In this document: piece by piece, positions 73-12,681 of the stretch
Numbering within the stretch: the first letter of the stretch is position 1
Layout: each line of letters starts with the position of its first letter
DNA from: Blastopirellula marina DSM 3645
Lineage (GTDB): Bacteria; Planctomycetota; Planctomycetia; Pirellulales; Pirellulaceae
NCBI RefSeq assembly: GCF_000153105.1
Contig: NZ_CH672377.1
Span: forward strand, 206,266-270,265
Reading direction: 5' to 3'
DNA: 64,000 nt
Notes under the pieces: model-generated
Seen by the model: the letters and a program-made list of their open reading frames with translations, nothing else
What the model was told of the DNA's origin: nothing
Databases searched by the model: none
Translations under genes and position numbers: made by a program

Positions 73-324
73 TTATTCACAGGTTCCATCTTGAGGCGGG
101 CCGACTTCCACCGCGACCAGCAGTCGCACGAGATCGGAGATTCGGCATTGATGCCGGGCACAGTGGATCTTGAGCCGCGTGTAAAGATCTTGGTCCATAT
201 CCAGCGTCAGACGCTTGGTCTTCTTGCGGGGCTCAGGCATAGGCTCCGGCGATCGGTTTTCGACCCAATCATCGGCTTGCGGTTTCGCCTGCGGGCGGAC
301 CGCCATTTTAATCTGCTTGCTCAT
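73..324 (-). CDS. Small ribbon-helix-helix-like partner of ParA
   Basis: This is an 83-residue basic protein. Its C-terminal half (KRLTLDMDQDLYTRLKIHC...ISDLVRLLV) has the strand-helix-helix pattern of CopG/Arc-type DNA-binding proteins. Its start overlaps the stop of the parA gene by 4 bases (ATGA), so the two are translationally coupled. In such pairs the small protein usually binds the centromere site and represses the operon, but no binding site was identified here. The N-terminal 35 residues are proline- and arginine-rich and probably disordered. A perfect DnaA-box-like sequence, TTATTCACA, overlaps the stop codon at 75-83. Confidence 0.7.
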   Translation of the reverse strand: MSKQIKMAVRPQAKPQADDWVENRSPEPMPEPRKKTKRLTLDMDQDLYTRLKIHCARHQCRISDLVRLLVAVEVGPPQDGTCE

Positions 325-941
325 GTCAACCTCCTTAGTTCATCCATGAATCGTTCGATCTCCTTCGTCGCCTTCTTGTCGGCTTGATCCAGCACGGTGC
401 TGCCAGTGACGATGCTTTCGGCGAACGCGACCCGCTGCCCGATATCGCTGGAGAGAATCGGGACCTCCAGTTCCGCCAGCGTTGCCCGCACGTCCCGTCC
501 GATCGCCGTATTGGCGATTTTACGATTGATCGCCAACACGCATTTCAGTTCCGGCTTGTAGACTTGAGCTTCCCGGATCAGATCGACCGTTTCCGCCGCC
601 GCCCACACATCCATCGGCGAGGGCTGCAACGGAATAACGACCACATCCGCAGCCAGAATGATCGACCGCGCCAACTCCGCGAGCCGGGGAGGGCCGTCAA
701 TGACCACGTCGTCGTAGTCCGACGCCATCATCTCGATTTCTTTGTGAAGCGTCGCCTTTGCCATCCCGACGACACTGAAATCAGGCGTCTCCCGAAAGTT
801 CGACCAAGCGAGAGCGCTCCCTTGAGGATCGGCGTCAATCAGCAAGACGCGCCGCCCATAGCGAGAAAGGGCAGCCGCCGTATGGATAGAAAGAGTCGTC
901 TTGCCGACGCCTCCTTTTTGGTTCAGAAAAGCGTAAATCAT
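321..941 (-). CDS. parA: ParA family partition ATPase
   Basis: This is a Walker-type partition ATPase of about 206 residues, which drives segregation of plasmids or integrated elements. The deviant Walker A motif KGGVGKTT lies near residue 11. It is followed by LLIDADPQGSALAW (A' motif) and VVIDGPP (Walker B). The short length, with no N-terminal helix-turn-helix, places it with the small plasmid-type ParAs. An ATG 27 bases upstream (968) is also possible, but MIYAFLNQKGG is the typical N-terminus. Neither start has a clear ribosome-binding site. It forms an operon with the ribbon-helix-helix gene downstream and supports a plasmid-like or ICE-like origin for the island. Confidence 0.88.
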   Translation of the reverse strand: MIYAFLNQKGGVGKTTLSIHTAAALSRYGRRVLLIDADPQGSALAWSNFRETPDFSVVGMAKATLHKEIEMMASDYDDVVIDGPPRLAELARSIILAADVVVIPLQPSPMDVWAAAETVDLIREAQVYKPELKCVLAINRKIANTAIGRDVRATLAELEVPILSSDIGQRVAFAESIVTGSTVLDQADKKATKEIERFMDELRRLT

Positions 942-1213
942 CAATGCCGTATCGTCGTGTTGCCGCATTTGCGCGGTTACGACTTGACGGTATCAATCTC
1001 AATGAAATTTCGCAATGATCTAACGAAGGTTATCCACGAAGTTAGACTTCGCATAGCGCCCTTCGTAGGCTTTGGGGGTCTACTCCTTTATTTTTGCAAA
1101 TGAACCGAGAACCGGATACATTCACAGTCTTCGATTTGAGAATGTGGGCGATATTGTTGTGGCCCGTCGAAGTATGGAATTTAAACGCGTATATCGCCAA
1201 GCGAAGAATCGAC

Positions 1214-4174
1214 ATGACCGCGAGGATACTCGAGCTAGACGCCATGGTGCGTTCAATCGAAGTCAACAAAGGATCTCCTCATGCACTTTTTCTTGGTGCA
1301 GGTGCATCGCTGACCTCCGGCGTGCCGTCAGCATGGACATGTGTGCTACGTTGGAAACGCAATATCTTTGAAACCAAAAATCCCGCATTAAAAACTGCAG
1401 TTTCGGAGATTAGTTTGCCGTCTGTGCAATCTCGCATTGACGATTGGTTGATAGCCAACGGGATTTGGCCCGACGATGATGAAGACGATTACAGTTACTT
1501 CATCGAGAAATGCCATCCTATCGAAGAGGACCGTCGAAGATTTTTTCAGAAGTTGATCAAATCTGCGAATCCTCATACGGGATATAAACTATTGGGATTG
1601 CTTGCTGAAGAAGGAGTTATTCGAAGCGTTTGGACGACAAACTTTGATGGGCTTGTCGCGAAAGCCTTACTTTCCAGTTCGACAATGTCTCCCGTAGAAA
1701 TCGGCATTGACTGTCAGGGTCGTATTGATCGACAGGACGACACAAATGAACTCATTTGTGTTTCATTACACGGCGACTATCGCTATGACAAGTTAAAAAA
1801 CACCGAGACTGAGCTTCAACTTCAAGAGGCCACTTTAGAAGCAAAGCTAGTTGAAACACTTAAAAGTCAATCACTTATAGTCTCGGGATACAGCGGCCGA
1901 GATCGCTCAATCATGGCCGCATTCGAGAAGGCAATCCTTAATCAAAAAAGCGGCGGCAACATATATTGGTGCGGCTTCTCAGAAACTCCCCCTAGTGCGG
2001 TCGATGATTTGCTTGCTCGCGCAATTCACGCTGGACGTCAAGCGTATTACATTCCTGACGTGAGCTTTGACGAACTAAACATAAGACTAGCTCATCAATG
2101 CCTAACCGGGGCAAAGGCAATCCAGGCGGATGAAATTATCGGATCGGCAACGCTCGTTTCCACTCCCCTGAAGACCGCTTTCTCGTTAGCCCCTTCTAAG
2201 ACGACGGGACTTATAAGGAGCAATGCATTTGCGCTGACATTGCCGACGGAAGTCTACAGTTTTGCTCTCAAAGAGTGGCCAATTGAGGGGCGTTGGAAAT
2301 GGCTTAGAACTCGATCCTCGAACAATGGATTTAACGCGGTCCCATTTTCCAATGCTGCGCTAGCAATAGGCACGCTAGATCAAATTAAGGATGAATTTGG
2401 CAATGAAATAGATGGTGAAATTCATCGTTCACCAATTACTGATACGGACATGAAGGTAGTTGATGGTGCTGTTTTTTCACTGGTTCAGAAGAGTCTGGTC
2501 CAATCAATTGCATCCCATCGCGGCCTTGATACCAATCACAGAGATCTAGTCTGGGATCCCGTTCAGATTGATAGCGTTCGACAAGGCAACGTGACGTATG
2601 GGATTTATCGCTGTGCACGCATCGAAATCCGATTGATCGATTCAAAAGTGCATATTACGCTGGATCCTACGTATTACGTGCCTGTTCCCGACGGGGACGT
2701 AAGCGACGGTCACCAAGAGGCGCGGAAGTACAAACTCGGCTACCAACATAACGCCGACTATGCCAGAGATCTCGAATACTGGCGCAAGATTCTGATTGGC
2801 GACACTCAAGTCACCGATGCGGTCGAGTTGGACTTTCCCCCCAACACTGCAGCATTCAAGTTTAGGCTAAATTTACGGCCTTCGTACGCAGTGATCAATG
2901 ACGGCAAGGCTCAGGCAATCCCTTTATCCGACAATCACCGAGTATTGATCAAACACTCGGGGAAAGTCTTTCCAGAACCACAACTACTTTTCGCGACGGA
3001 GGCAGGCTGGAACCCTTCGAGTGATACTTTCCCTTTACGAGGACTGGCAAATCATGGTCCTTTTGATGCGGAATCGGTCAAAGCGATGCCACAGAATGAC
3101 ATTCAGCTTTCGATTATCTGCCCAAAGGCCGAAGCACAGATGCTCTCACAATTTCTTTCCACCAGTGATTGTAAAGCGAACGCGAAACGTCCAGGTGAAT
3201 ATGTCGTAGATTTCAAGGGATTTTCTGATGTGTTCCGTTGCAACCTAGTCATTCCAGGGTTGTCCGATCCAAACTGGATCACCTTGCCTGAACTCCGCTC
3301 GAATCAAGAAGCTCTTAACGGATGCCAAGAATTGACATCGAATTTGTGCGCGGCATTGACAACGGCATCAGCCCTGGGACGCTCTGTTGCATTAATCTTG
3401 ACGCCCAATCGCTGGGAGAAATTCCGATCCGCAGAAACCGACGAGCACAACTTTGACGTACATGACGACGTTAAAGCCTTTGCCGTTCGAAAGGGGATTG
3501 CAACTCAGTTCCTAGATCAAGACACTCTCTCGCCTTACGACCAATCACGGATCTGGTGGTGGCTTTCTTTAGCTATTTATACGAAGGCCATGCGAACGCC
3601 TTGGGTACTGAAGTCTCTGGATACAGACTCTGCGTTTGTTGGTCTCGGGTATTCAATTGATCGTGGGTCCGACCGCGACCAGAAGATAGTCCTTGGGTGT
3701 AGTCATATCTACAATGCTCAAGGTCAAGGGCTGCAATTCCGGTTACGGAACATTCAGGATCCACGAATTCGAAGAGATAGAAACCCTTATCTAAACTTTA
3801 ATGAAGCGAGGCAGCTGGGGGAAATGATCAGGCAGCTATTTTGGGAGTCGCACTATCGGCTGCCCAATCGGGTTGTCATTCACAAGCTATTTCCGTTCAC
3901 CTACGAAGAGATCAAAGGAATCAAGGCAGGATTGAGCGGGGTGGCTATGCTTGAGTTGCTCGAAATCAATCATGAACCATCGCTTCGGTTCTTGAGCTCA
4001 AGGTTTCAAAATGGGCAGTTCCAGATCGATGGATACCCGGTAAAACGAGGTACAGCCCTTAAGTTGTCTAGCGATGAGCTACTGCTATGGGTTCATGGTG
4101 CAACATCGGCAGTAAACGACAAAAACACTTATTTTCAAGGAAAGCGTCGCATCCCCACGGCGATCGCACCATAA
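1214..4174 (+). CDS. SIR2-APAZ-PIWI short Argonaute, truncated by an IS
   Basis: This is a fused defence protein with SIR2 NADase, APAZ (N/PAZ-like), MID and inactive PIWI domains in one chain. Numbering from the ATG at 1214, the SIR2 domain holds GAGAS (28-32), TTNFDGL (Asn143), LHGDYRYD (His186) and SGYSGRD (about 224-230). APAZ covers roughly residues 310-650. MID/PIWI follows, with an R-K-rich segment ending in GIATQFLDQDTL and then FVGLGYSIDR, where the usual first catalytic Asp is Gly. Short Argonautes are catalytically dead and use guide RNA to trigger the effector, here NAD depletion. The reading frame ends four codons into an inserted IS (TAA at 4172-4174), losing the last 70 native residues. 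The frame is open from 1094, but the upstream codons look non-native; the start is uncertain. Confidence 0.85.
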   Translation: MTARILELDAMVRSIEVNKGSPHALFLGAGASLTSGVPSAWTCVLRWKRNIFETKNPALKTAVSEISLPSVQSRIDDWLIANGIWPDDDEDDYSYFIEKCHPIEEDRRRFFQKLIKSANPHTGYKLLGLLAEEGVIRSVWTTNFDGLVAKALLSSSTMSPVEIGIDCQGRIDRQDDTNELICVSLHGDYRYDKLKNTETELQLQEATLEAKLVETLKSQSLIVSGYSGRDRSIMAAFEKAILNQKSGGNIYWCGFSETPPSAVDDLLARAIHAGRQAYYIPDVSFDELNIRLAHQCLTGAKAIQADEIIGSATLVSTPLKTAFSLAPSKTTGLIRSNAFALTLPTEVYSFALKEWPIEGRWKWLRTRSSNNGFNAVPFSNAALAIGTLDQIKDEFGNEIDGEIHRSPITDTDMKVVDGAVFSLVQKSLVQSIASHRGLDTNHRDLVWDPVQIDSVRQGNVTYGIYRCARIEIRLIDSKVHITLDPTYYVPVPDGDVSDGHQEARKYKLGYQHNADYARDLEYWRKILIGDTQVTDAVELDFPPNTAAFKFRLNLRPSYAVINDGKAQAIPLSDNHRVLIKHSGKVFPEPQLLFATEAGWNPSSDTFPLRGLANHGPFDAESVKAMPQNDIQLSIICPKAEAQMLSQFLSTSDCKANAKRPGEYVVDFKGFSDVFRCNLVIPGLSDPNWITLPELRSNQEALNGCQELTSNLCAALTTASALGRSVALILTPNRWEKFRSAETDEHNFDVHDDVKAFAVRKGIATQFLDQDTLSPYDQSRIWWWLSLAIYTKAMRTPWVLKSLDTDSAFVGLGYSIDRGSDRDQKIVLGCSHIYNAQGQGLQFRLRNIQDPRIRRDRNPYLNFNEARQLGEMIRQLFWESHYRLPNRVVIHKLFPFTYEEIKGIKAGLSGVAMLELLEINHEPSLRFLSSRFQNGQFQIDGYPVKRGTALKLSSDELLLWVHGATSAVNDKNTYFQGKRRIPTAIAP
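4146..4155. repeat. Target-site duplication, left copy
   Basis: The 10-bp sequence GTCGCATCCC lies directly before the left inverted repeat of the IS and is repeated exactly at 5419-5428 after the right end. It lies in the codons for the Arg-Ile-Pro of the Argonaute. Confidence 0.9.
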
Positions 4175-5418
4175 ATCACGTCCCCAGCAACACTTCCAAC
4201 AAGTAGGCGTCGTTCCTTCCAGCTTTTAGCCGCTTGTTCTTCACGCCCACCTTCGCCGTTTTGTTGTTCTTCAACAAGCTCAGGCTTGTTCTTCTTAGCA
4301 GACTGAAGTTGACGTCGGCGTGGCCTTTGCGGATTCGACTTTGGTCTTCGCCGAACGTTACGTCGAGTTGCCAGTGGAGCGAATTCTCAATGCTCCAGTG
4401 CCCTCGGACCGCTTCGGCGAAGCGTTTGCCGGTGAGATATTTGCTCACGATGTAGTAGCGTACTTCACTCGTCTCTTTGCCGTTTTGCTTGACGATATTG
4501 ATCGTCATTCCGATCGCCTTCAGCTTCGTCCAACGCGAGGCGTACGGAAAATCATCGGCGTCGATTGGACAGAGATAGTAGTAACGCGACTCTTCGCGGC
4601 CATGCCCTTTCTCGTGCGTCTCGTGGCGGTGAACTTTCATTTTCGCAAAGTCGATTTCCATCGCAGCGGCGAAGTGATCGCGAATCGCTTGATGCAGATA
4701 ACGCTGATTCCCTTTAATCGCCAGACAGTAATCACCGCCTGCGTTAACGATCTTGGCGGCGATCTCTTTCTGACAACCCATCGCGTCGATCGTCACCAAA
4801 CAGCCGGAAACCTCGATGATTTCGAGCAATTTCGGAATCGCCGTGATCTCATTACTCTTCGCGTCAGTCGCGACTTGCCCGAGACTCACATGATTGGCGG
4901 TCGCCCAGGCGCTGACCATATGAATCGCGGCCTTGCTGCTGGCGGCGTCAAAGCTGCGCCGCAAAGTTTTGCCGTCGATCGCGATAATCTGCCCATCGGT
5001 AATCTCTTGCAACGAAGTGATCCAGCTAAGCAAACACTTCTCAAATTCAGCCGGCTTCAAAGCGCCGAGAATCGCGTTGAAGCGATCATGCGAAGGAACG
5101 CCGGTGCTCATGTCGAGGAACTGCGAAAGCCACTCTTTCTTGTCTTCGGCCCAGTCAGTGATCGCAACGAAATCATCTGCTCCACCTAGCACCGCACAGA
5201 GCGACATCGTGACGATGTTGACTAGCGGATAAGTTACCTTGCGAGTCCGCGGATCCGTCAGATCGGCGAAGTGTTCTTGAATCGAAGCGCGCGATGAAGA
5301 CGACATGCTGAACAACTCTCGGCAAGACAAACGCTTGGCCGCGATCAAGCAATCACGAAACCGCCAAGACGCACTTGCCGGATTGTCGCAGGTTGCCCAT
5401 CATGGCGCAATCGCCGTG
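4156..5418. mobile_element. ISAs1-family insertion sequence
   Basis: The element is 1,263 bp long and carries one minus-strand transposase. Its left end CACGGCGATCGCACCAT (4156-4172) pairs with the reverse complement of the right end, CACGGCGATTGCGCCAT (5402-5418), matching at 15 of 17 positions. A 10-bp direct repeat flanks both ends, within the 8-10 bp range known for ISAs1 elements. Intact ends, an intact transposase and an identical target duplication suggest a fairly recent insertion. Removing the IS and one repeat copy restores the Argonaute frame exactly. Confidence 0.92.
4176..5306 (-). CDS. ISAs1 family DDE transposase
   Basis: This is a 376-residue transposase with the IS4-superfamily DDE fold. 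The N-terminal HFADLTDPR segment is typical of ISAs1/H-repeat proteins. Visible catalytic candidates are the Asp in IAIDGKTLRRS, the Asp in LVTIDAMGCQ and the Glu in SIENSLHWQLDVTF, in the Y-(2)-R-(3)-E style region. The ATG at 5306 (MSSSSRAS) is preferred because it gives the usual family length; an in-frame TTG at 5348 would add 14 residues. The gene fills the IS and looks full length, so the element may still be active. Confidence 0.92.
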   Translation of the reverse strand: MSSSSRASIQEHFADLTDPRTRKVTYPLVNIVTMSLCAVLGGADDFVAITDWAEDKKEWLSQFLDMSTGVPSHDRFNAILGALKPAEFEKCLLSWITSLQEITDGQIIAIDGKTLRRSFDAASSKAAIHMVSAWATANHVSLGQVATDAKSNEITAIPKLLEIIEVSGCLVTIDAMGCQKEIAAKIVNAGGDYCLAIKGNQRYLHQAIRDHFAAAMEIDFAKMKVHRHETHEKGHGREESRYYYLCPIDADDFPYASRWTKLKAIGMTINIVKQNGKETSEVRYYIVSKYLTGKRFAEAVRGHWSIENSLHWQLDVTFGEDQSRIRKGHADVNFSLLRRTSLSLLKNNKTAKVGVKNKRLKAGRNDAYLLEVLLGT

Positions 5419-5428
5419 GTCGCATCCC
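5419..5428. repeat. Target-site duplication, right copy
   Basis: This is GTCGCATCCC, identical to 4146-4155, and marks the right junction of the IS. Confidence 0.9.
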
Positions 5429-5639
5429 CAGTCCTGTCGTCATCCGTAGGTATGCAGGTACGTCTGATATTGCCATGATCGCCAACGAGATTCTTGGGTT
5501 ATCGAAGATGGACTGGAATTCGGGGGAGCTCTACTCTCGGCTTCCGGCGACCGTCCAATCGTCCAAAACTATCGCTCGGATCGGCCGCCGACTTGCAGCT
5601 GTCGGCCATACGTCATTCGACTATCGCCTCTTTATGTGA
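5429..5639 (+). pseudogene. Severed C-terminus of the short Argonaute
   Basis: After the right target duplication the PIWI frame resumes. Joined across the deleted IS, the codons read K-R-R-I-P then SPVVIRRYAGTSDIAMIANE, then ILGLSKMDWNSGELYSRLPA, then TVQSSKTIARIGRRLAAVGH and TSFDYRLFM, ending at TGA 5637-5639. The P-x-x-I-R-R, L-x-x-x-x-W-N and R-L-P-A-T patterns are typical of the end of PIWI domains, where the C-terminal residues help bind the guide 5' phosphate. The restored protein would be about 1,050 residues from the 1214 start. The piece has no start codon or ribosome-binding site of its own and is not expected to be made. Confidence 0.88.
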
Positions 5640-5731: not shown

Positions 5732-6508
5732 ATGGCAAACGCTCCCAACAGCTGGTTCTCGCAGTGGTTTGATGAGGAGGAATGTATCATTGAAACAGTT
5801 ACCGTGTTGAATGAGTCCGAAAACGGCCGTATCGCTGTATTTGAACAATTTGTTACGGTCGCCGTAGATCACGTAATTGGACTGAAAGTTATCGAGAGTC
5901 TTGGAGGGTTTCCACAATCGACACATGTTCTAAAAAACAGGGTGCCAGCCGGAAAAATTGCCCGGTCTGGGTTTCTTGGAGAGATCCTAGCAACGGAATA
6001 CGTCGACGAAATCACGGAGTTTAATGTTCCGGTCCGCAGGCTACGACACCGAGATACTCGCAATCTTGCCATGCGTGGCGACGATGTGCTTGGCTTTCAC
6101 GTTGAGGAGCCAAACGTAAAAGTAATAAAAGTAGAGGCAAAGAGTCGCGACAGACTTAAAACCGCCACGATATCCGAGGCTCGCAATGGATTGGCGAATC
6201 ACGAAGGACTTCCCAATCCAGAAACGTTGGCTTTCTTGGAATGTCATTTGCGACAGCAGGGCCGGGACGAGGAAGCAGATCCAATCACAAGACTGCAAAA
6301 GCAGTCAATTCATGCTTCCAATATTTGCCACCTCGTGTTCACTGTTTCCGGCAATAGTCCAACGAGCTTTCTCGAAGGCAACAGCACAGCCGTTTGCCAG
6401 GACATCGAGCTACGACTTTGCGGATGTCGACTCAGGCATCATGCAGAATTTGTAAAGTCGGTTTTCGACGCATGCTTACAAAGGGGCGAAGCCGATGGAG
6501 TCGCCTGA
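5732..6508 (+). CDS. hamA: Hachiman defence nuclease HamA (DUF1837)
   Basis: This 258-residue protein matches HamA of the Hachiman antiphage system, a DUF1837 protein with a PD-(D/E)xK-type nuclease core. Visible candidates are Glu84 (GEILATEY), Asp117/118 (RGDDVLGFH) and Glu135-Ala-Lys137 (KVEAKSR), spaced as in this nuclease fold. In the known system HamA is held inactive by the helicase HamB and degrades DNA once HamB senses damaged or invading DNA. The stop overlaps the hamB start by 14 bases. The upstream ribosome-binding site is weak. It starts 92 bases after the end of the broken Argonaute gene, which suggests both entered as neighbouring defence cargo. Confidence 0.82.
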   Translation: MANAPNSWFSQWFDEEECIIETVTVLNESENGRIAVFEQFVTVAVDHVIGLKVIESLGGFPQSTHVLKNRVPAGKIARSGFLGEILATEYVDEITEFNVPVRRLRHRDTRNLAMRGDDVLGFHVEEPNVKVIKVEAKSRDRLKTATISEARNGLANHEGLPNPETLAFLECHLRQQGRDEEADPITRLQKQSIHASNICHLVFTVSGNSPTSFLEGNSTAVCQDIELRLCGCRLRHHAEFVKSVFDACLQRGEADGVA

Positions 6509-9500
6509 AGAATTGACGGAGAAGCTGCGAGAGCTCTGCGAATCAGGAACGCGAGGGAAATTGCTTGCAAGAGGCTTGGCTCGCGGCATGATTTGGGATG
6601 ACGGTGTTCTTCCAGAGGGCAGTCCAAACTTTTCACCAAGCCTGACTAATGACCTTCTAAATCATGGATATCTGGTACTTGGATGCGCCATACGACTGCG
6701 ATCACTTTCATTGCGTGAGGATATCCCTGATACGGACGTTCTAGATAGCTCCTTTCTGACTGCTGCCGAATGTATTGAGGCAGTGGTTCGTTACGGAGAA
6801 AGACGAAACGATCGTGGGTTTCATCTTACTATCGCTGCCGCAGCCTTTCACCTTGCTCATTATGGCGCAAGGTCGTTCTCGCTACTGGCAGAGAATACGC
6901 AATTATTGAATCTAGTTCACAATGAACAAATCTTGGTCGCCTTGATGCAGCGTCGTCTTGATGAGCTTGAACGTCTCTTAATCGACTGGCTAAACGACGA
7001 GAATTTTACGGATGCGGGAATTTCCGCGTCTCTAGAATCTGATGACGATCAAGTCACTGTCGAAAATGCCGCCTATCTCGCAATTACCCGCGTATTCAAC
7101 CAAGCGATAGCAACTTTTGAATTTGCGGTGCGAACAGGAGAAAACCAATTTGCGGCGAATGCAATCGAGATGCTTGATAAATGTGTCAACGCGGCAGATC
7201 GTTTGACACACGTCCCACTCTGGTGGATTTGCGTGCTTGCCCGACATTTAATCGATGATCTTTGGGGACGCAGCCTGCACCAAATACTTCCGCTTGCGCC
7301 AAATGACGATGACAACTGGAACCGCTTGCGAGCAGACTTCATTGAACTGCTCGGTCGACGGAGCATTTCAGAAATTGATCTCTGGCCATCACAAACACTG
7401 GCGGCAAAGCGTGTTATTGACGAATCAGACAGCCTCGTCGTTGCTTTACCAACAAGCAGCGGAAAGACGCGAATTGCCGAATTGTGCATTTTAAAATGCC
7501 TCGCCGGTAAACGGCGTGTAATTTACGTCACTCCATTGCGTGCTCTATCCGCGCAAGTTGAAGGAACATTAGGTCGGTGTTTTAAACCTCTTGGCTTTAC
7601 TGTAACGAGTGTTTACGGAGCAAGCGGCATCGGTGCAAGCGACGTTGACACCATGAGGTCCGCAGACATCGTCGTAGCCACGCCAGAGAAGCTAGACTTT
7701 GCAATTCGCCAGGACCCTGATGCCATTGCGGATGTTGGCCTGATCGTACTCGACGAAGGACACATGATTGGGCTGAGCGAACGCGAAATTCGCTACGAAA
7801 TTCTTGTACAAAGGCTTCTGCGGAGAGCGGACGCGGACAAGCGGCGAATCGTTTGCCTTTCTGCGATTTTCACGGAAGGTGCCGCCTTCGATGCGTTTAC
7901 GCAATGGATTCGATCAGATAACGATGGCAACGCGATTCAGTCAAATTGGCGTCCCACGCGACAAATACCAGCAACACTTCGCTGGACTGATTCACGCGGT
8001 TGGCTTGAATATCGAGTTGCCGGCGAAAAGGTTTTCATTCCACGATTTATTGAAGAAGCATCGCCGAAGCGACCGCGCCGCAACCCTTTTCCACAAAACC
8101 AGGCCGAGCTTGTGGTAGCGGCCATTGAACGTTTTAGTGATGATGGCCACTCTGTTTTACTGTATTGTCCATTGCGTTCATCGGTGGAAACAGCCGCCGA
8201 AACTTTTTTGAAAATGGAAAGTTATGGATATGCAAAGAGCCATCTTCGTACTGAAGCGGCTATTGAGATTAAAAGGGCTCTAAGTATCGGCGAGGAATGG
8301 CTCGGAATAAGTCATGTCGCAATCCGTGCCTTGCGACTTGGCATTGCAGTGCATCATGGGCAACTTCCTCGGCCATTTCTTTCCGAGCTTGAAGACTTGC
8401 TGAAGCGTCAAGTGCTCTCTGTTGCGATTTCTTCGCCGACCCTTGCCCAAGGAGTCGATCTGTCATTCGGTGTCCTTATCTTCAAATCGCTTTGGAGGAG
8501 TGGTGAATTGATTAAGGCGAAAGAATTTGCGAACGTCATAGGAAGAGTAGGCAGAGCGTTTGTTGACATTGATGGGATCTACGTACTTCCAGTACTTGAG
8601 CTTGCCCCTGGAAGGGAGGCAAACAGGCTCGACGAATTCCATCGACTTATACGGCACGCAAAAAGTCGCGAGCTCGAGAGCGGGCTCTATCTTTTGATTT
8701 CTATCTGTCTTTCGAGACTAAAAAGAAAACTCGACTTGGAAGACAATGCACTTAGCGACTATGTCTTAAATCAGCAACAAGCGATCGATACCATGGCTGA
8801 GGGCTCAGATGAGAATGCGGAGCAGATGGAGATTATCCTTGCGGAGTTGGATGCTGGTATTCTGGCACTTGTCGATAATTTGGAGTGCGATGATTCGCAG
8901 ATTGCATCGAAGCTAGACGAGGCACTGAACAATTCGCTTTGGAAACGCCGACTGGCAATTAAAGAGCTAGAAGAACGGCGAAACCAGATAGCAATGCTCC
9001 ACGGAAGAGCATTGCACATTTGGAAAAGAACAAATGTCGCTCAGCGAAAAGGCTTCTACTCAGCAAGTATTGGAACCGAATCAGGCTTGCAAATTGTAGC
9101 TAATCGGTCAGAACTCGAATCGCTGCTGGAATCGGCGACTAAAGCAATTCGAACTGGTGCGGTTGAGCAACTCTCGGATGATTGTTGTAAACTTGCGAAA
9201 ACTCTGTTCCAGTTCTACCCATTTCAGCCATCAATGCCAGCAGATTGGGACGAATCAACATGGACGGCGATCCTTGATGCCTGGATCAAAGGGGCTGCTC
9301 TCCACCGAGTCACGAATTCCGCAGGAATTGCATTTGTGCAGGAAGCCATCATTTATAGGCTCGTGTGGGCCATTGAATCCGTGAGACTCGTCCTGAATAA
9401 TCTTGCTGAAAACACAAAAGATGGCCTAGTTATCAATGATGATCGTACATTCGTTGCGATCTGCTTAACTTATGGCGTTCCCAAAATGTCAGCAGCACGC

Positions 9501-9959
9501 ATGCTCGAATGCGGCATGGAATCTAGGCTGTTGGCAGTTCGCATTGCAAAAGAGCTAAATCTCAACTTCACGAAACGAGACGAATTGATCGACTGGTTAA
9601 TTCAGTACAAGGAAACGGAACCACTGACATTCTCCGAGGAAGAACGCACAGCATGGCAAAGGTTCGTTGATAGAAATGAATACTCTTTTGACCTGTGGTT
9701 GCATAGAAATGACGTATATGAAGTTCGCCTCGGAAGTGGAATCGAAGTTGAACTGGGCAAAAGCATCAGAATAATCCCGAACGAAAATGGTTCGGCGGAA
9801 TTGTACACTCCAGATTTTGAATGGCTCGGTCGTACCAAATCAAATGTTACCGCCGAGCGGTCACTAATCGGGACGACGATCGAACAAGGCAGGGTGATTG
9901 CTAAAACCTTCGGACCACCCAAACGATCGAAGGGCACATCGGCAAGCCACAACAAGTGA
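6495..9959 (+). CDS. hamB: Hachiman helicase HamB
   Basis: This is a 1,154-residue superfamily 2 helicase with Ski2-like order. An N-terminal region of about 300 residues has no recognised motif. Motif I is LPTSSGKTR (about 317-325), motif Ia is VIYVTPLRALSAQ, motif II is LDEGHM (about 420), motif III is LSAIF, and motifs V/VI are SSPTLAQGVDLSFG and NVIGRVGRAF (about 675-685). A long helical C-terminal region follows. HamB surveys DNA and controls the HamA nuclease. The ATG at 6495 lies inside hamA and is preceded by an AAGGGG ribosome-binding site, so the two are coupled. The sequence is visibly more A+T-rich than the chromosomal genes to the right. No frameshift was seen, so the system appears intact. 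Confidence 0.85.
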   Translation: MESPEELTEKLRELCESGTRGKLLARGLARGMIWDDGVLPEGSPNFSPSLTNDLLNHGYLVLGCAIRLRSLSLREDIPDTDVLDSSFLTAAECIEAVVRYGERRNDRGFHLTIAAAAFHLAHYGARSFSLLAENTQLLNLVHNEQILVALMQRRLDELERLLIDWLNDENFTDAGISASLESDDDQVTVENAAYLAITRVFNQAIATFEFAVRTGENQFAANAIEMLDKCVNAADRLTHVPLWWICVLARHLIDDLWGRSLHQILPLAPNDDDNWNRLRADFIELLGRRSISEIDLWPSQTLAAKRVIDESDSLVVALPTSSGKTRIAELCILKCLAGKRRVIYVTPLRALSAQVEGTLGRCFKPLGFTVTSVYGASGIGASDVDTMRSADIVVATPEKLDFAIRQDPDAIADVGLIVLDEGHMIGLSEREIRYEILVQRLLRRADADKRRIVCLSAIFTEGAAFDAFTQWIRSDNDGNAIQSNWRPTRQIPATLRWTDSRGWLEYRVAGEKVFIPRFIEEASPKRPRRNPFPQNQAELVVAAIERFSDDGHSVLLYCPLRSSVETAAETFLKMESYGYAKSHLRTEAAIEIKRALSIGEEWLGISHVAIRALRLGIAVHHGQLPRPFLSELEDLLKRQVLSVAISSPTLAQGVDLSFGVLIFKSLWRSGELIKAKEFANVIGRVGRAFVDIDGIYVLPVLELAPGREANRLDEFHRLIRHAKSRELESGLYLLISICLSRLKRKLDLEDNALSDYVLNQQQAIDTMAEGSDENAEQMEIILAELDAGILALVDNLECDDSQIASKLDEALNNSLWKRRLAIKELEERRNQIAMLHGRALHIWKRTNVAQRKGFYSASIGTESGLQIVANRSELESLLESATKAIRTGAVEQLSDDCCKLAKTLFQFYPFQPSMPADWDESTWTAILDAWIKGAALHRVTNSAGIAFVQEAIIYRLVWAIESVRLVLNNLAENTKDGLVINDDRTFVAICLTYGVPKMSAARMLECGMESRLLAVRIAKELNLNFTKRDELIDWLIQYKETEPLTFSEEERTAWQRFVDRNEYSFDLWLHRNDVYEVRLGSGIEVELGKSIRIIPNENGSAELYTPDFEWLGRTKSNVTAERSLIGTTIEQGRVIAKTFGPPKRSKGTSASHNK

Positions 9960-9974
9960 TGGCCTGTTTCTCGA

Positions 9975-10175
9975 GGCAACTCCCGTTCCAATTGCTATCA
10001 AAGTCTGGTTGAGCGAAATCTGCTGATTCTTCGCGTTTTGCGACGAAACTCGACTTGCCATAGTGGGATGTCTGTGCCCGATGTCATGAGTGACGGCGAT
10101 TGGATCGATAACGCACTCCTTGGTTACCGCCTCAGTGGCGCACGAACGTCTGATGCCGTTGGTGATAAGGGACAC
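9975..10175 (-). pseudogene. C-terminal relic of a second tyrosine integrase
   Basis: On the minus strand, 67 codons align end to end with the C-terminus of the intact integrase at 11509-12510. Relic segments RRSCATEAVTK, DPIAVTHDIGH and HPTMASRVSSQNAKN correspond to RHSFATEALTK, DPISVAHLMGH and DPTMVSRVYSHIARN. The catalytic Tyr is replaced by Ser, there is a one-residue insertion, and the rest of the gene is absent, so it is dead. It begins 16 bases after hamB and probably marks an older integration end. Confidence 0.75.
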
Positions 10176-10484: not shown

Positions 10485-11486
10485 ATGGCGAAGAAGAAAA
10501 AAACTAGCAAGCCGAAGCACGATGTCTATCAGGAAGTGACCGACCGAATTCTTGGCTACCTGGAGCAAGGCGTCGCCCCCTGGCGAAACCCAATCAAACG
10601 CGGCTCCGGCGACGGCTGGCCGAAGAATCTCGACAGCGGCAAGCGTTATCGAGGCATCAACGTCTTTTTGCTTGGCTTGCGATCCTGGGAGAGCGGTTAC
10701 TCTTCCGATTTCTGGCTGACTTTCAACCAGGCGAAGGCCCGCGGAGGTCAGGTTCGTAAAGGGGAGAAGGGATCGCTTGTCACCTTCTTCAAGATGTACG
10801 CGACCAAGGATCAAGAGACTGACCATCCGATCGAGATCCCGATGTTGAAACACTTCATCGCCTTCAATGTCGAGCAGATCGACGGCATTGAAGCCCCCGA
10901 TGCCCCAGCAGAGAACCCGGACGCTACGCCGTTTGAACCGCTTGCTGCAGCCGAACAAATTGTCGCCGGATACGCATCTCGGCCGGCGGTTGAACATGAC
11001 GGCGGGAGCCGGGCGTTCTACCGCCCGCGATCCGACAGCGTTCACCTGCCCAAGCAGGAACGTTTTGACGACCGAGAGAGCTATTACTCGACGCTCTTTC
11101 ACGAACTAACTCATTCTACCGGGCACAGCAACCGCTTGAACCGCGGTCTCGACACTGAGCTAGCGCCGTTCGGTTCGCCCGACTACAGCCGCGAAGAGCT
11201 GGTCGCAGAAATGGGCGCCGCATTTCTCTGCGCCGTGAGCGGGATCAGCCCACCGGCCATCGAGCAATCTGCGTCGTATCTGCAAGGCTGGATCAAGGTC
11301 CTCAAAGGGGACAAACGCTTGGTCGTTGGCGCCGCCAGCGCGGCACAGAAAGCGACCGATTGGATCTTGGGCGAGAAGTTCAACGATGCCAGACCACCGC
11401 CGGAAAACGAGGCTTCAAGCGATCCATCGGTGAATCCTTTGCCGTCGAAGCAGAACAACTCCGCCTCTCAACTTGATTTGTTCTGA
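10485..11486 (+). CDS. ardC: ArdC-like antirestriction / zincin protein
   Basis: This is a 333-residue protein of the ArdC type. The N-terminal domain (about 10-125), with YQEVTDRILGYLEQGVAPWR, matches the single-stranded-DNA-binding domain of ArdC. The C-terminal metallopeptidase-like domain carries the zinc motif HELTHSTGH at about residue 205 and a downstream acidic segment (REELVAEMGAAFL). ArdC proteins bind incoming single-stranded DNA and protect plasmids and ICEs from host restriction after transfer. A GAGG ribosome-binding site precedes the ATG. The last 35 residues are low-complexity and end in SQLDLF. It lies 22 bases from the convergent integrase gene and belongs to the element's backbone rather than to its defence cargo. 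Confidence 0.88.
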   Translation: MAKKKKTSKPKHDVYQEVTDRILGYLEQGVAPWRNPIKRGSGDGWPKNLDSGKRYRGINVFLLGLRSWESGYSSDFWLTFNQAKARGGQVRKGEKGSLVTFFKMYATKDQETDHPIEIPMLKHFIAFNVEQIDGIEAPDAPAENPDATPFEPLAAAEQIVAGYASRPAVEHDGGSRAFYRPRSDSVHLPKQERFDDRESYYSTLFHELTHSTGHSNRLNRGLDTELAPFGSPDYSREELVAEMGAAFLCAVSGISPPAIEQSASYLQGWIKVLKGDKRLVVGAASAAQKATDWILGEKFNDARPPPENEASSDPSVNPLPSKQNNSASQLDLF

Positions 11487-11508: not shown

Positions 11509-12510
11509 TCACGCCCCTTTCTTTCCCACCGCCTTCAAAGCCTGTTGCCGCAGGAACTCCGGATTCCTCGCGATGTGCGAATAGACGCGACTAACCATCG
11601 TCGGATCTTTATGCCCCATCAGATGGGCGACGGAGATCGGATCCACGCCCCCTTTAGTCAGGGCTTCCGTCGCGAAAGAGTGCCGGGCGCCATAGGCGAT
11701 CACACGGAAGCCGACCGTTTTGCTGACGCGGGTCAATTGGCAGATGATCGCATTTTTTGTCCAGGGGAGACCGCGGGTATTGCGAAACAGAATGCCGGAC
11801 GGCCGGTCCTTCGCCAACCGGCGGAGAATGGCCTTCGCCTCGGGGACCAGATAAATCACACGGGCCTCGTGTTCTCCTTTCGATTCGTCCGTCGGGAAGA
11901 TGACGAGATCGTCGTGAAGGTGACGGGCTTCAATGGTTCGGGCTTCCAAGGGACGGCAGCCGGTAAGATAGAGAAAGTCGAGCAATTCGCCCAAAGGTCC
12001 GGGAACATTCTCTCGAATGAGCTTCCATTGCTCCGGGGTATAGAAAACGTCGCGTCGTTTCCGTTTCGGCTTCTTCATCCGCTTGATTGGGTTGCGGTAG
12101 AGATATTCTTGCTCGACCGCCCAGTTCAGCATTCGCTGCACGATACCGACGACATCATTTTGCGTGGTCGTGCCGACGGCCAAGCCTTCGTGCCATTTGG
12201 AAACGTGGTGTACCCGCAGCTGGGAAGGCCGCATTCGCCTGCCGACGCTGTCGATGAACGACTTCAGGTAGCGCTTGTGCAGTCGATAGGTCGCCGGCTT
12301 GCGGTTCGCCTCGCACCAGTCGAGGTAGACTTGGGAAAGCTCATAGAGAGTGGTAAGTTCGTCCTTGACCTGCTCGCGATCGGCCATTAATTCGTGAAAT
12401 TTGGCATGGGCGGCGTCGCGGTTTTTGCCGAGCGAAATCTGCCGGCCGGCGATGCTGCAGTACCAGCTTTTGGTCTGCTTGCGGTAGAAGGGTTTTGGCT
12501 GCCGCGGCAT
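11509..12510 (-). CDS. int: Tyrosine recombinase / integrase
   Basis: This is a 333-residue site-specific recombinase. It has an N-terminal arm-binding segment (SWYCSIAGRQISLGK), a core-binding SAM-like domain (about 60-150) and a catalytic domain. The catalytic residues are Arg in TGCRPLEA, the Arg-His pair in YGARHSFA, His in HLMGHKD and the nucleophile Tyr in SRVYSHI. The start has a GGAGG ribosome-binding site 7 bases upstream. It reads leftward with its 5' end about 100 bases from the tRNA-Val 3' end, as expected of the integrase of an element inserted there. The protein appears intact. Confidence 0.93.
   Translation of the reverse strand: MPRQPKPFYRKQTKSWYCSIAGRQISLGKNRDAAHAKFHELMADREQVKDELTTLYELSQVYLDWCEANRKPATYRLHKRYLKSFIDSVGRRMRPSQLRVHHVSKWHEGLAVGTTTQNDVVGIVQRMLNWAVEQEYLYRNPIKRMKKPKRKRRDVFYTPEQWKLIRENVPGPLGELLDFLYLTGCRPLEARTIEARHLHDDLVIFPTDESKGEHEARVIYLVPEAKAILRRLAKDRPSGILFRNTRGLPWTKNAIICQLTRVSKTVGFRVIAYGARHSFATEALTKGGVDPISVAHLMGHKDPTMVSRVYSHIARNPEFLRQQALKAVGKKGA

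Positions 12511-12605: not shown

Positions 12606-12681
<76 letters not shown>

Follow-up and report, generated by a model that had tools for sequence, protein, structure and literature searches.

Very probably, the gene that begins near the left edge of the window (the whole 64,000-nucleotide stretch of Blastopirellula marina DSM 3645 DNA analysed here) is an S1A-type Argonaute gene on a 54-kb element that has been cut by an insertion sequence (IS) and ends 69 codons short, the insertion being likely recent and the product likely non-functional. As judged from its sequence, the interrupted gene is predicted to encode SIR2, APAZ, MID and PIWI regions in one chain, as in the SPARSA-type clade S1A. 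Short pAgos as a class are described in the literature as having a PIWI domain without the DEDX catalytic tetrad, and the original SPARSA discovery papers reportedly appeared in Nat Microbiol in 2022.

A single-chain Argonaute gene and the IS that splits it

The gene and the inserted element comprise the following features.

1214..4155, + strand: 5' part of the predicted fused SIR2-APAZ-MID-PIWI gene, spanning codons 1-980 plus two bases of codon 981 (PDLC02384; PDB phmmer to GsSPARSA 8in8_B and 8in8_C)
1214..2113, + strand: SIR2 NADase domain, about residues 1-300 (Pfam SIR2_2)
1640-1642 and 1769-1771, + strand: SIR2 catalytic N143 and H186 (homologue alignment)
2207..2902, + strand: APAZ region, about residues 332-563
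2942..4156, + strand: MID and truncated PIWI, residues 577-981 (8in8 comparison, model fit, homologue alignment)
3461, 3473 and 3506, + strand: 5'-phosphate pocket H750, K754 and Q765 (homologue alignment)
4146..4155, + strand: left copy of the 10-bp target-site duplication (TSD), GTCGCATCCC
4156..5418, - strand: ISAs1-family IS of 1263 bp, ends CACGGCGAT(C/T)GC(A/G)CCAT inverted (genomic copies; NF033564)
4172..4174, + strand: IS-supplied TAA that terminates the 986-residue truncated product
4176..5348, - strand: ISAs1 transposase, 390 codons, open (NF033564 1-314/314, 414 bits)
5419..5428, + strand: right copy of the target-site duplication, GTCGCATCCC
5430..5639, + strand: orphaned PIWI C-terminus, residues 982-1050, with TGA at 5637-5639 (PDLC02384 962-1030/1030; 8in8_C 405-473, E 3.8e-9)

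By arithmetic, window positions 1214-4155 and 5419-5639 add up to a complete gene of 1050 codons, and the reading frame is open from the ATG at 1214 through the TAA at 4172-4174. The PADLOC model PDLC02384 ('pAgo', 1030 positions) matches the open reading frame at 1214 over model positions 3-964 (1124 bits) and, the pieces being searched separately, the downstream frame 5430-5636 over positions 962-1030 (100.7 bits). Together with Pfam SIR2_2 and PDB phmmer matches, this bears out the single-chain SIR2-APAZ-PIWI protein proposed by the first-pass annotation, whose '70-codon' tail surviving in frame corresponds to 69 residues and the stop; 63 of these 69 residues are identical in P0001, an intact relative of 77% identity. 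The features of S1A were found one by one: the SIR2 Asn/His dyad (Pfam SIR2_2, N143 and H186), APAZ followed by MID-PIWI in one chain (PDLC02384 match) and a placement among fused sequences in the tree, where the five nearest rows are fused and a 9-row clade has a support of 100/100, the rows carrying no S1A labels. A working S1A gene runs uninterrupted to the conserved C-terminus; here the IS (4156-5418) and the TAA at 4172 interrupt the frame, so the gene is classified as a broken S1A member and not as a working system.

In the comparison with solved SPARSA complexes suggested by the first-pass annotation, the predicted structure superposes on the SIR2-APAZ and pAgo chains in tandem. Both parts align by sequence and predicted fold with Geobacter sulfurreducens SPARSA (8in8, 8jkz, 8y7z), which, in contrast, consists of two chains and shares about 26% identity over MID-PIWI and about 20% over SIR2-APAZ in structural alignments. 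With S1A (APAZ group Ia; Ryazansky 2018) the gene shares the single-chain domain order, a similar length and the catalytic and pocket residues. It differs in its interruption by an IS, in its location on an integrated mobile element and in its neighbouring Hachiman system. The fused architecture is not exceptional, fused SIR2-APAZ-pAgo proteins being a named clade, S1A (PMC11156904). The novelty is therefore smaller than first stated, and the gene is a broken member of an already known kind. The homologue search scored the 7995 candidates with the most words in common and gave 1755 homologues at E <= 1e-10; of the 120 listed, 119 are 1005-1075 residues long. That most such systems are two separate proteins is only mildly true, since a 2018 survey counts 150 proteins in the two-protein group Ib and 117 in APAZ group Ia, the fused type, of which 31 lack MID-PIWI (PMC6299218).

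The IS boundaries at 4156-5418 were set by comparison with the other genomic copies, and the 10-bp duplication at 4146-4155 and 5419-5428 is exact on both sides, as first described. ISAs1-family elements typically duplicate about 8-10 bp of target. The transposase, which runs antisense to the Argonaute gene, clears the curated NF033564 cut-off (414 bits against 70) over the full model with its frame open, in keeping with an IS judged apparently intact, and 15 of the first 17 bases of the IS ends are inverted-identical. By transposase model, inverted ends and 10-bp target duplication the IS belongs to the ISAs1 family, from which no difference was found. The genome (G000) contains eight near-identical copies, seven identical letter for letter and one with two mismatches, so the insertion into the Argonaute gene is likely recent. 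Seven of the eight copies have an exact 10-bp TSD and the eighth has one displaced by one base; no common motif was found by eye among the eight target sites. The truncated product is native-identical over its first 981 residues, its last five being IS-derived.

An 8-copy repeat of 1.26 kb is of a type prone to misassembly and might have been misjoined within the gene. This explanation is disfavoured and extremely improbable, as both flanks belong to the same gene, adjoin in profile coordinates and carry a matching 10-bp TSD, in a genome where only one copy of the gene was found. A further alternative is a reversible switch, in which precise loss of the IS in some cells restores the gene and a costly suicide system is kept mostly off. 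Such a switch could draw on IS copies that are identical and keep the transposase frame open, on a 10-bp direct repeat able to recombine and on a gene in which inspection of open reading frames and profiles found no other lesion. It is nonetheless very unlikely, given that the literature matches listed offered no evidence of ISAs1 excision and that a genome-wide search found no second, uninterrupted copy of the gene. Nor was a SPARSA gene split by an IS reported among the matches listed (titles and abstract openings on defence systems, insertion sequences, interruption and Argonaute).

Predicted consequences of losing the PIWI C-terminus

The 69-residue tail beyond the breakpoint is present in 55 of the 57 homologues aligned out of the 120 listed; one has 68 residues and the remaining one, P0073, has a divergent 30-residue end. 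A natural early stop, the outcome set beforehand as a refutation, is rejected because none of the 57 ends at the breakpoint. Among the 63 left out of the alignment is P0097, of 824 residues, which ends earlier still, inside PIWI. The lost tail is the best conserved of the four segments compared. N143 and H186 are invariant in all 57 homologues, and the catalytic and pocket residues are the same across them.

The visible SIR2 catalytic residues are kept, as had been noted: N143 and H186, the counterparts of GsSir2 N142 and H186 (PMC10781750), are present in the truncated product along with the MID pocket H750/K754/Q765. According to the structural model, the product is predicted to be without one strand of the PIWI core and two helices, and the conserved C-terminus is missing as well. 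By analogy with the related SPARTA complex, where this C-terminal end helps hold the guide-bound metal, guide and target sensing should fail for want of these parts, and the SIR2 NADase would hence not be released.

The first-pass annotation had expected guide loading to be disabled through loss of the 5'-phosphate contact. This is plausible, but the MID pocket residues checked are intact and the papers disagree on the pocket: one study concludes that SIR2-APAZ/Ago activation does not need the guide 5' phosphate (PMC10474274), and another describes no effect of H166A and Q181A and a considerable drop upon mutation of K170 (PMC10781750). Since the 5' phosphate is reported dispensable, a missing C-terminal metal ligand would not by itself prove inactivity; the predicted loss of a core PIWI strand and two helices would be the better argument. 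The truncated protein still reached a pLDDT of 83.2 and a pTM of 0.75 in AlphaFold2, so that a folded, partly active remnant is conceivable.

Whether the truncated NADase is silent or deregulated had been left open. Silence is most likely: the insertion leaves the lid region of SIR2 as it was, runaway NAD hydrolysis is expected to be lethal, and lid replacement was required to restore activity to a SIR2-domain-only protein (PMC10474274). Truncation could instead free SIR2 from a PIWI clamp and leave a deregulated or partly active NADase, with a leaky loss of NAD or an altered trigger. The intact dyad would allow this, SIR2 packs chiefly on PIWI in GsSPARSA (PMC10781750) and the SIR2 domain turns mobile upon activation (PMC10474274). 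The latter study also reports that deletion of the sensor loop almost abolished activity, which with the lid requirement speaks against deregulation, and a strain would not be expected to survive with a strongly and constitutively active NADase; deregulation is thus unlikely. The truncated product resembles the 31 of 117 group Ia proteins without MID-PIWI (PMC6299218), SIR2-APAZ proteins without a full PIWI that perhaps reflect independent loss; here, in contrast, only the last 69 residues are lost and the causal IS is visible.

The mobile element and its Hachiman genes

The Argonaute gene is cargo of a 54-kb element integrated at tRNA-Val, whose features in the window are as follows.

321..968, - strand: ParA partition ATPase of the mobile element (NF041546, 266 bits)
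5732..6508, + strand: HamA of Hachiman (PDLC00159, 197 bits; Pfam HamA)
6495..9959, + strand: HamB helicase of Hachiman (PDLC00174 2-1142/1163, 1243 bits)
10485..11486, + strand: ArdC-type antirestriction protein (Pfam ArdcN, MPTase-PolyVal)
11509..12510, - strand: tyrosine integrase of the element (Pfam Phage_integrase)
12606..12649, no strand: 44-bp attachment repeat, the tRNA-Val 3' end (second exact copy at G000 C1:164737-164780)
12607..12681, - strand: tRNA-Val(tac), the integration target (ARAGORN)

The element spans 54,178 bp between the attachment repeats. Its integrase at a tRNA flanked by such repeats, together with a TrwC relaxase (229.6 bits) and a T4SS-DNA_transf coupling protein (187.4 bits), both in L132, identify it as an integrative and conjugative or mobilizable element. 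HamA starts 92 bp after the Argonaute stop and is adjacent to HamB, the arrangement of Hachiman; both genes are near full-length by profile and lie directly downstream. Hachiman is a separate defence system from the Argonaute. Through a polar effect the IS insertion may lower HamAB expression. A promoter and terminator scan was not above shuffled sequences (2 found against 5.4 expected, and 7 against 6.2).

A conserved HamAB-Argonaute operon is not proposed: when 85 loci (79 from genome contigs) were searched for HamA and HamB of the window, the order recurred only at L085. Two loci (L111, L123) have weak helicase matches without HamA. HamB matches at E <= 1e-60 occur in 2 of 392 and 2 of 369 genomes, and HamB relatives lie on 58 plasmid records, none being found in viral contigs. 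The Argonaute protein itself matches 66 plasmid records, three of them over at least 80% of its length and all three below 60% identity, and viral contigs hold seven loci with relatives, five near full length.

Broken Argonaute genes in other genomes

No relative came up when genomes were scanned with the single protein. A scan with the alignment yielded 79 loci from the best 80 of 134 hits, a score ranking that favours intact genes, and 72 of these loci are intact single open reading frames. Of the other seven, four run off the contig (L084, L112, L113, L117), where a contig-end IS is possible, L085 and L118 carry small frameshifts, and L121 is interrupted by an internal stop. Fused genes number five in 392 Planctomycetota genomes (three intact; the window's and that of G238 broken), one in 360 genomes of the G394 class (G394 itself) and three, all intact, in 394 genomes of the G393 order (G393 included), samples too few for a rate of broken fused genes.

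Matches to the PIWI tail (E <= 1e-3) occur in 21 of the 392 genomes, of which 10 belong to the same class as the window, a count that would miss pAgos too distant from the fused profile. Junctions were examined in G000, G181 and G315, and in each of the three a transposase adjoins the cut; the remaining 18 genomes were judged by open-frame lengths. The PIWI gene of G181 is cut by IS256 and that of G315 probably by IS1380, both elsewhere in PIWI than the window gene, giving three IS-cut genes (G315 probable) in the 10 same-class genomes with a PIWI-tail match. A further locus, L131, retains only residues 976-1050, and some 400 bp upstream of it lie fragments of degenerate IS3-family transposase; in the DNA between, only a 72-bp IS3 match was recognised. 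The window and L131 breakpoints give a hint of a hotspot. It is decidedly unlikely that they reflect a general pattern in which IS repeatedly cut the PIWI sensors of short Argonautes in this class and spare the effector (ISAs1 here, IS256 in G181), favour the conserved GKRRIP codons (window, L131) and impose a reversible off-state that ends when the IS leaves or the element moves on.

Overall, nature has here truncated a single-chain short Argonaute cleanly. The locus documents how a mobile element can lose abortive-infection cargo through ordinary transposition and yet keep, next to it, a second defence system whose sequence is intact; the same kind of damage affects Argonaute genes in related genomes. 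The truncation asks whether the last 69 residues serve guide binding, NADase restraint or both. Were the truncated protein active, current views of how SPARSA is activated would have to be revised; were the insertion reversible, the gene would be a switchable suicide defence.

A fused Argonaute gene cut by an insertion sequence

The window (Blastopirellula marina genome G000, C1:206266-270265) carries an Argonaute gene in two pieces, separated by an insertion sequence (IS) and followed by a Hachiman system:

1214-4172, + strand: Argonaute 5' open reading frame, ATG to TAA, 986 residues
4146-4155 and 5419-5428: target duplication GTCGCATCCC, from copy comparison
4156-5418, 1263 bp: ISAs1-family IS, transposase antisense to the gene, limits set by other genomic copies
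5430-5636, + strand: Argonaute tail frame, PDLC02384 positions 962-1030, 100.7 bits
5732-9959: Hachiman pair HamA and HamB, directly downstream of the Argonaute gene, from profiles

The 5' piece and the tail were searched separately, never as a joined sequence. The 986-residue product matches positions 3-964 of the PADLOC pAgo model PDLC02384 (1030 positions) with 1124 bits, and the presence of this model in two pieces around an IS with a 10-bp duplication bears out the IS-split SIR2-APAZ-PIWI Argonaute described in the first-pass annotation. SIR2_2 is the sole domain recognised by Pfam in the frame. In a sequence search of solved structures, the SIR2 end matched 8in8_B and the MID-PIWI part 8in8_C, both from the G. 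sulfurreducens SPARSA, the tail corresponding to 8in8_C 405-473. The SIR2 catalytic residues N143 and H186 (GsSir2 N142 and H186) are kept in the truncated product, as had been proposed, and the pocket residues H750, K754 and Q765 (GsAgo H166, K170 and Q181) are also retained. The GC content of the gene is 47.8%, compared with 58.2% in the part of the window beyond 13 kb.

The transposase belongs to the ISAs1 family (NF033564, 414 bits). Eight near-identical copies of the IS were found in the genome, seven letter-identical (including that of the window) and one with two mismatches; exact 10-bp duplications flank seven of the eight, and at L002 the repeat is shifted by one base. L009, a ninth copy of equal length, is 85% identical and has no duplication. 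The identity of the copies suggests a recent spread. Because at least two other copies (L004, L005) sit between long open frames, the IS probably breaks further genes as well. A fragment 43% identical to its transposase lies about 100 bp past an intact fused Argonaute gene at another locus (L116:3702-3950).

Relatives and predicted effect of the truncation

The window protein is of the same fused type as clade S1A (PMC11156904) and group Ia, described as 117 proteins of which 31 lack MID-PIWI (PMC6299218); single-chain APAZ-Agos are also mentioned in PMC10954474 and PMC10810196. In a MID-PIWI tree of 61 rows (58 different), the window piece groups with its homologues P0001 and P0002 inside a nine-row fused clade supported at 100/100. 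The tree, rooted at the midpoint only, places six divergent fused rows (of which two are identical) on long branches, away from the main fused group and beside the seven split rows. One planctomycete MAG (G397; L046, L149, L151) contains fused and two-gene SPARSA-type loci together.

In SPARSA, binding of guide RNA and target DNA shifts a PIWI sensor loop and releases the SIR2 NADase (PMC10474274; PMC10781750). In SPARTA, Asn468 and putatively the last residue, Ile507, bind a metal at the 5' end of the guide (PMC11156904; PMC10474274); judged by length, the counterparts of both would fall within the lost segment. The earlier interpretation is partly supported: it stands as regards an IS-cut gene, whereas the literature is split on its proposal that guide loading fails through the 5' phosphate: one paper concluded that SIR2-APAZ/Ago does not need this phosphate (PMC10474274), and another reported H166A and Q181A to be without effect, while mutating K170 caused a considerable decrease (PMC10781750). 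Because of this conflict, the predicted loss of function is better attributed to the PIWI strand and helices missing from the truncated product. The activity of a SIR2-only protein was restored by replacement of the SIR2 lid (PMC10474274), which favours a truncated product that would be silent, its lid being untouched.

Hachiman genes and the integrative element

HamA starts 92 bp beyond the Argonaute stop and HamB comes next, each matching its profile over nearly the full length; the pair possibly shares one transcript with the broken gene. The same order, fused Argonaute, HamA, HamB, occurs in a gammaproteobacterial MAG (L085:1624-8926), where the Argonaute gene is frameshifted within a T run. 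An exact 44-bp repeat of the tRNA-Val end (window 12606-12649 and C1:164737-164780) bounds an integrative element of 54,178 bp encoding an integrase, ParA, ArdC, a TrwC relaxase and a coupling protein. A degraded second tyrosine integrase fragment (9864-10175) shares 51% identity across 61 residues with the integrase at 11509-12510. Just inside the left attachment repeat lies a 4544-codon frame, Calx-beta/Rhs-repeat-like by eye (L138:6351-19985, G000 C1).

Other broken Argonaute genes

PIWI-tail matches (E <= 1e-3) were obtained in 21 of 392 Planctomycetota genomes. The window's class accounts for 10 of the 21, and three of the ten (G000, G181 and probably G315) are IS-cut; loss of Argonaute genes by transposition thus recurs. 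The G181 case is a two-gene system:

L153:6804-9667 (G181 C1): split short pAgo gene, effector gene intact

Its REase-APAZ gene is intact (PDLC02398 2-424/429) and its pAgo pieces (PDLC02376 1-285 and 273-455 of 455) are separated by an IS256-family transposase (335.7 bits), the element having an 8-bp target duplication CATTTAGA and inverted ends that agree at 18 of 26 bases. In G315 (L034:1498-3157), a pAgo tail (PDLC02377 315-457/457) directly adjoins a transposase of the IS1380 family, and the contig ends within this transposase; no second half of the pAgo was found.

An IMG/VR contig (L131:1038-1268) carries an orphan PIWI tail (residues 976-1050 only) that begins at GKRRIP, within a few codons of the breakpoint in the window, with degenerate pieces of an IS3-family transposase nearby. 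In G238 (L133, C1:4905000-4924000), a fused gene lacks SIR2 residues 1-178; relative to a related Gimesia locus (L069; 93.9% over 2644 bp), a deletion of about 1.0 kb spans the gene start. Another IMG/VR contig (L130:6004-7293) has a 429-residue frame matching fused-protein residues 2-428 only. Two further fused genes have lesions between APAZ and MID, an internal stop near match residue 717 (L121) and a frameshift near residue 600 (L118), which could be real or MAG errors.

Preferential loss of Argonaute genes to IS is not claimed, the numbers being too small and the sampling tied to one profile. Overall, the window gene is a member of a known clade that was probably inactivated, and recently so as judged by IS identity. 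It is a useful natural truncation, and its class has several Argonaute genes cut by an IS.
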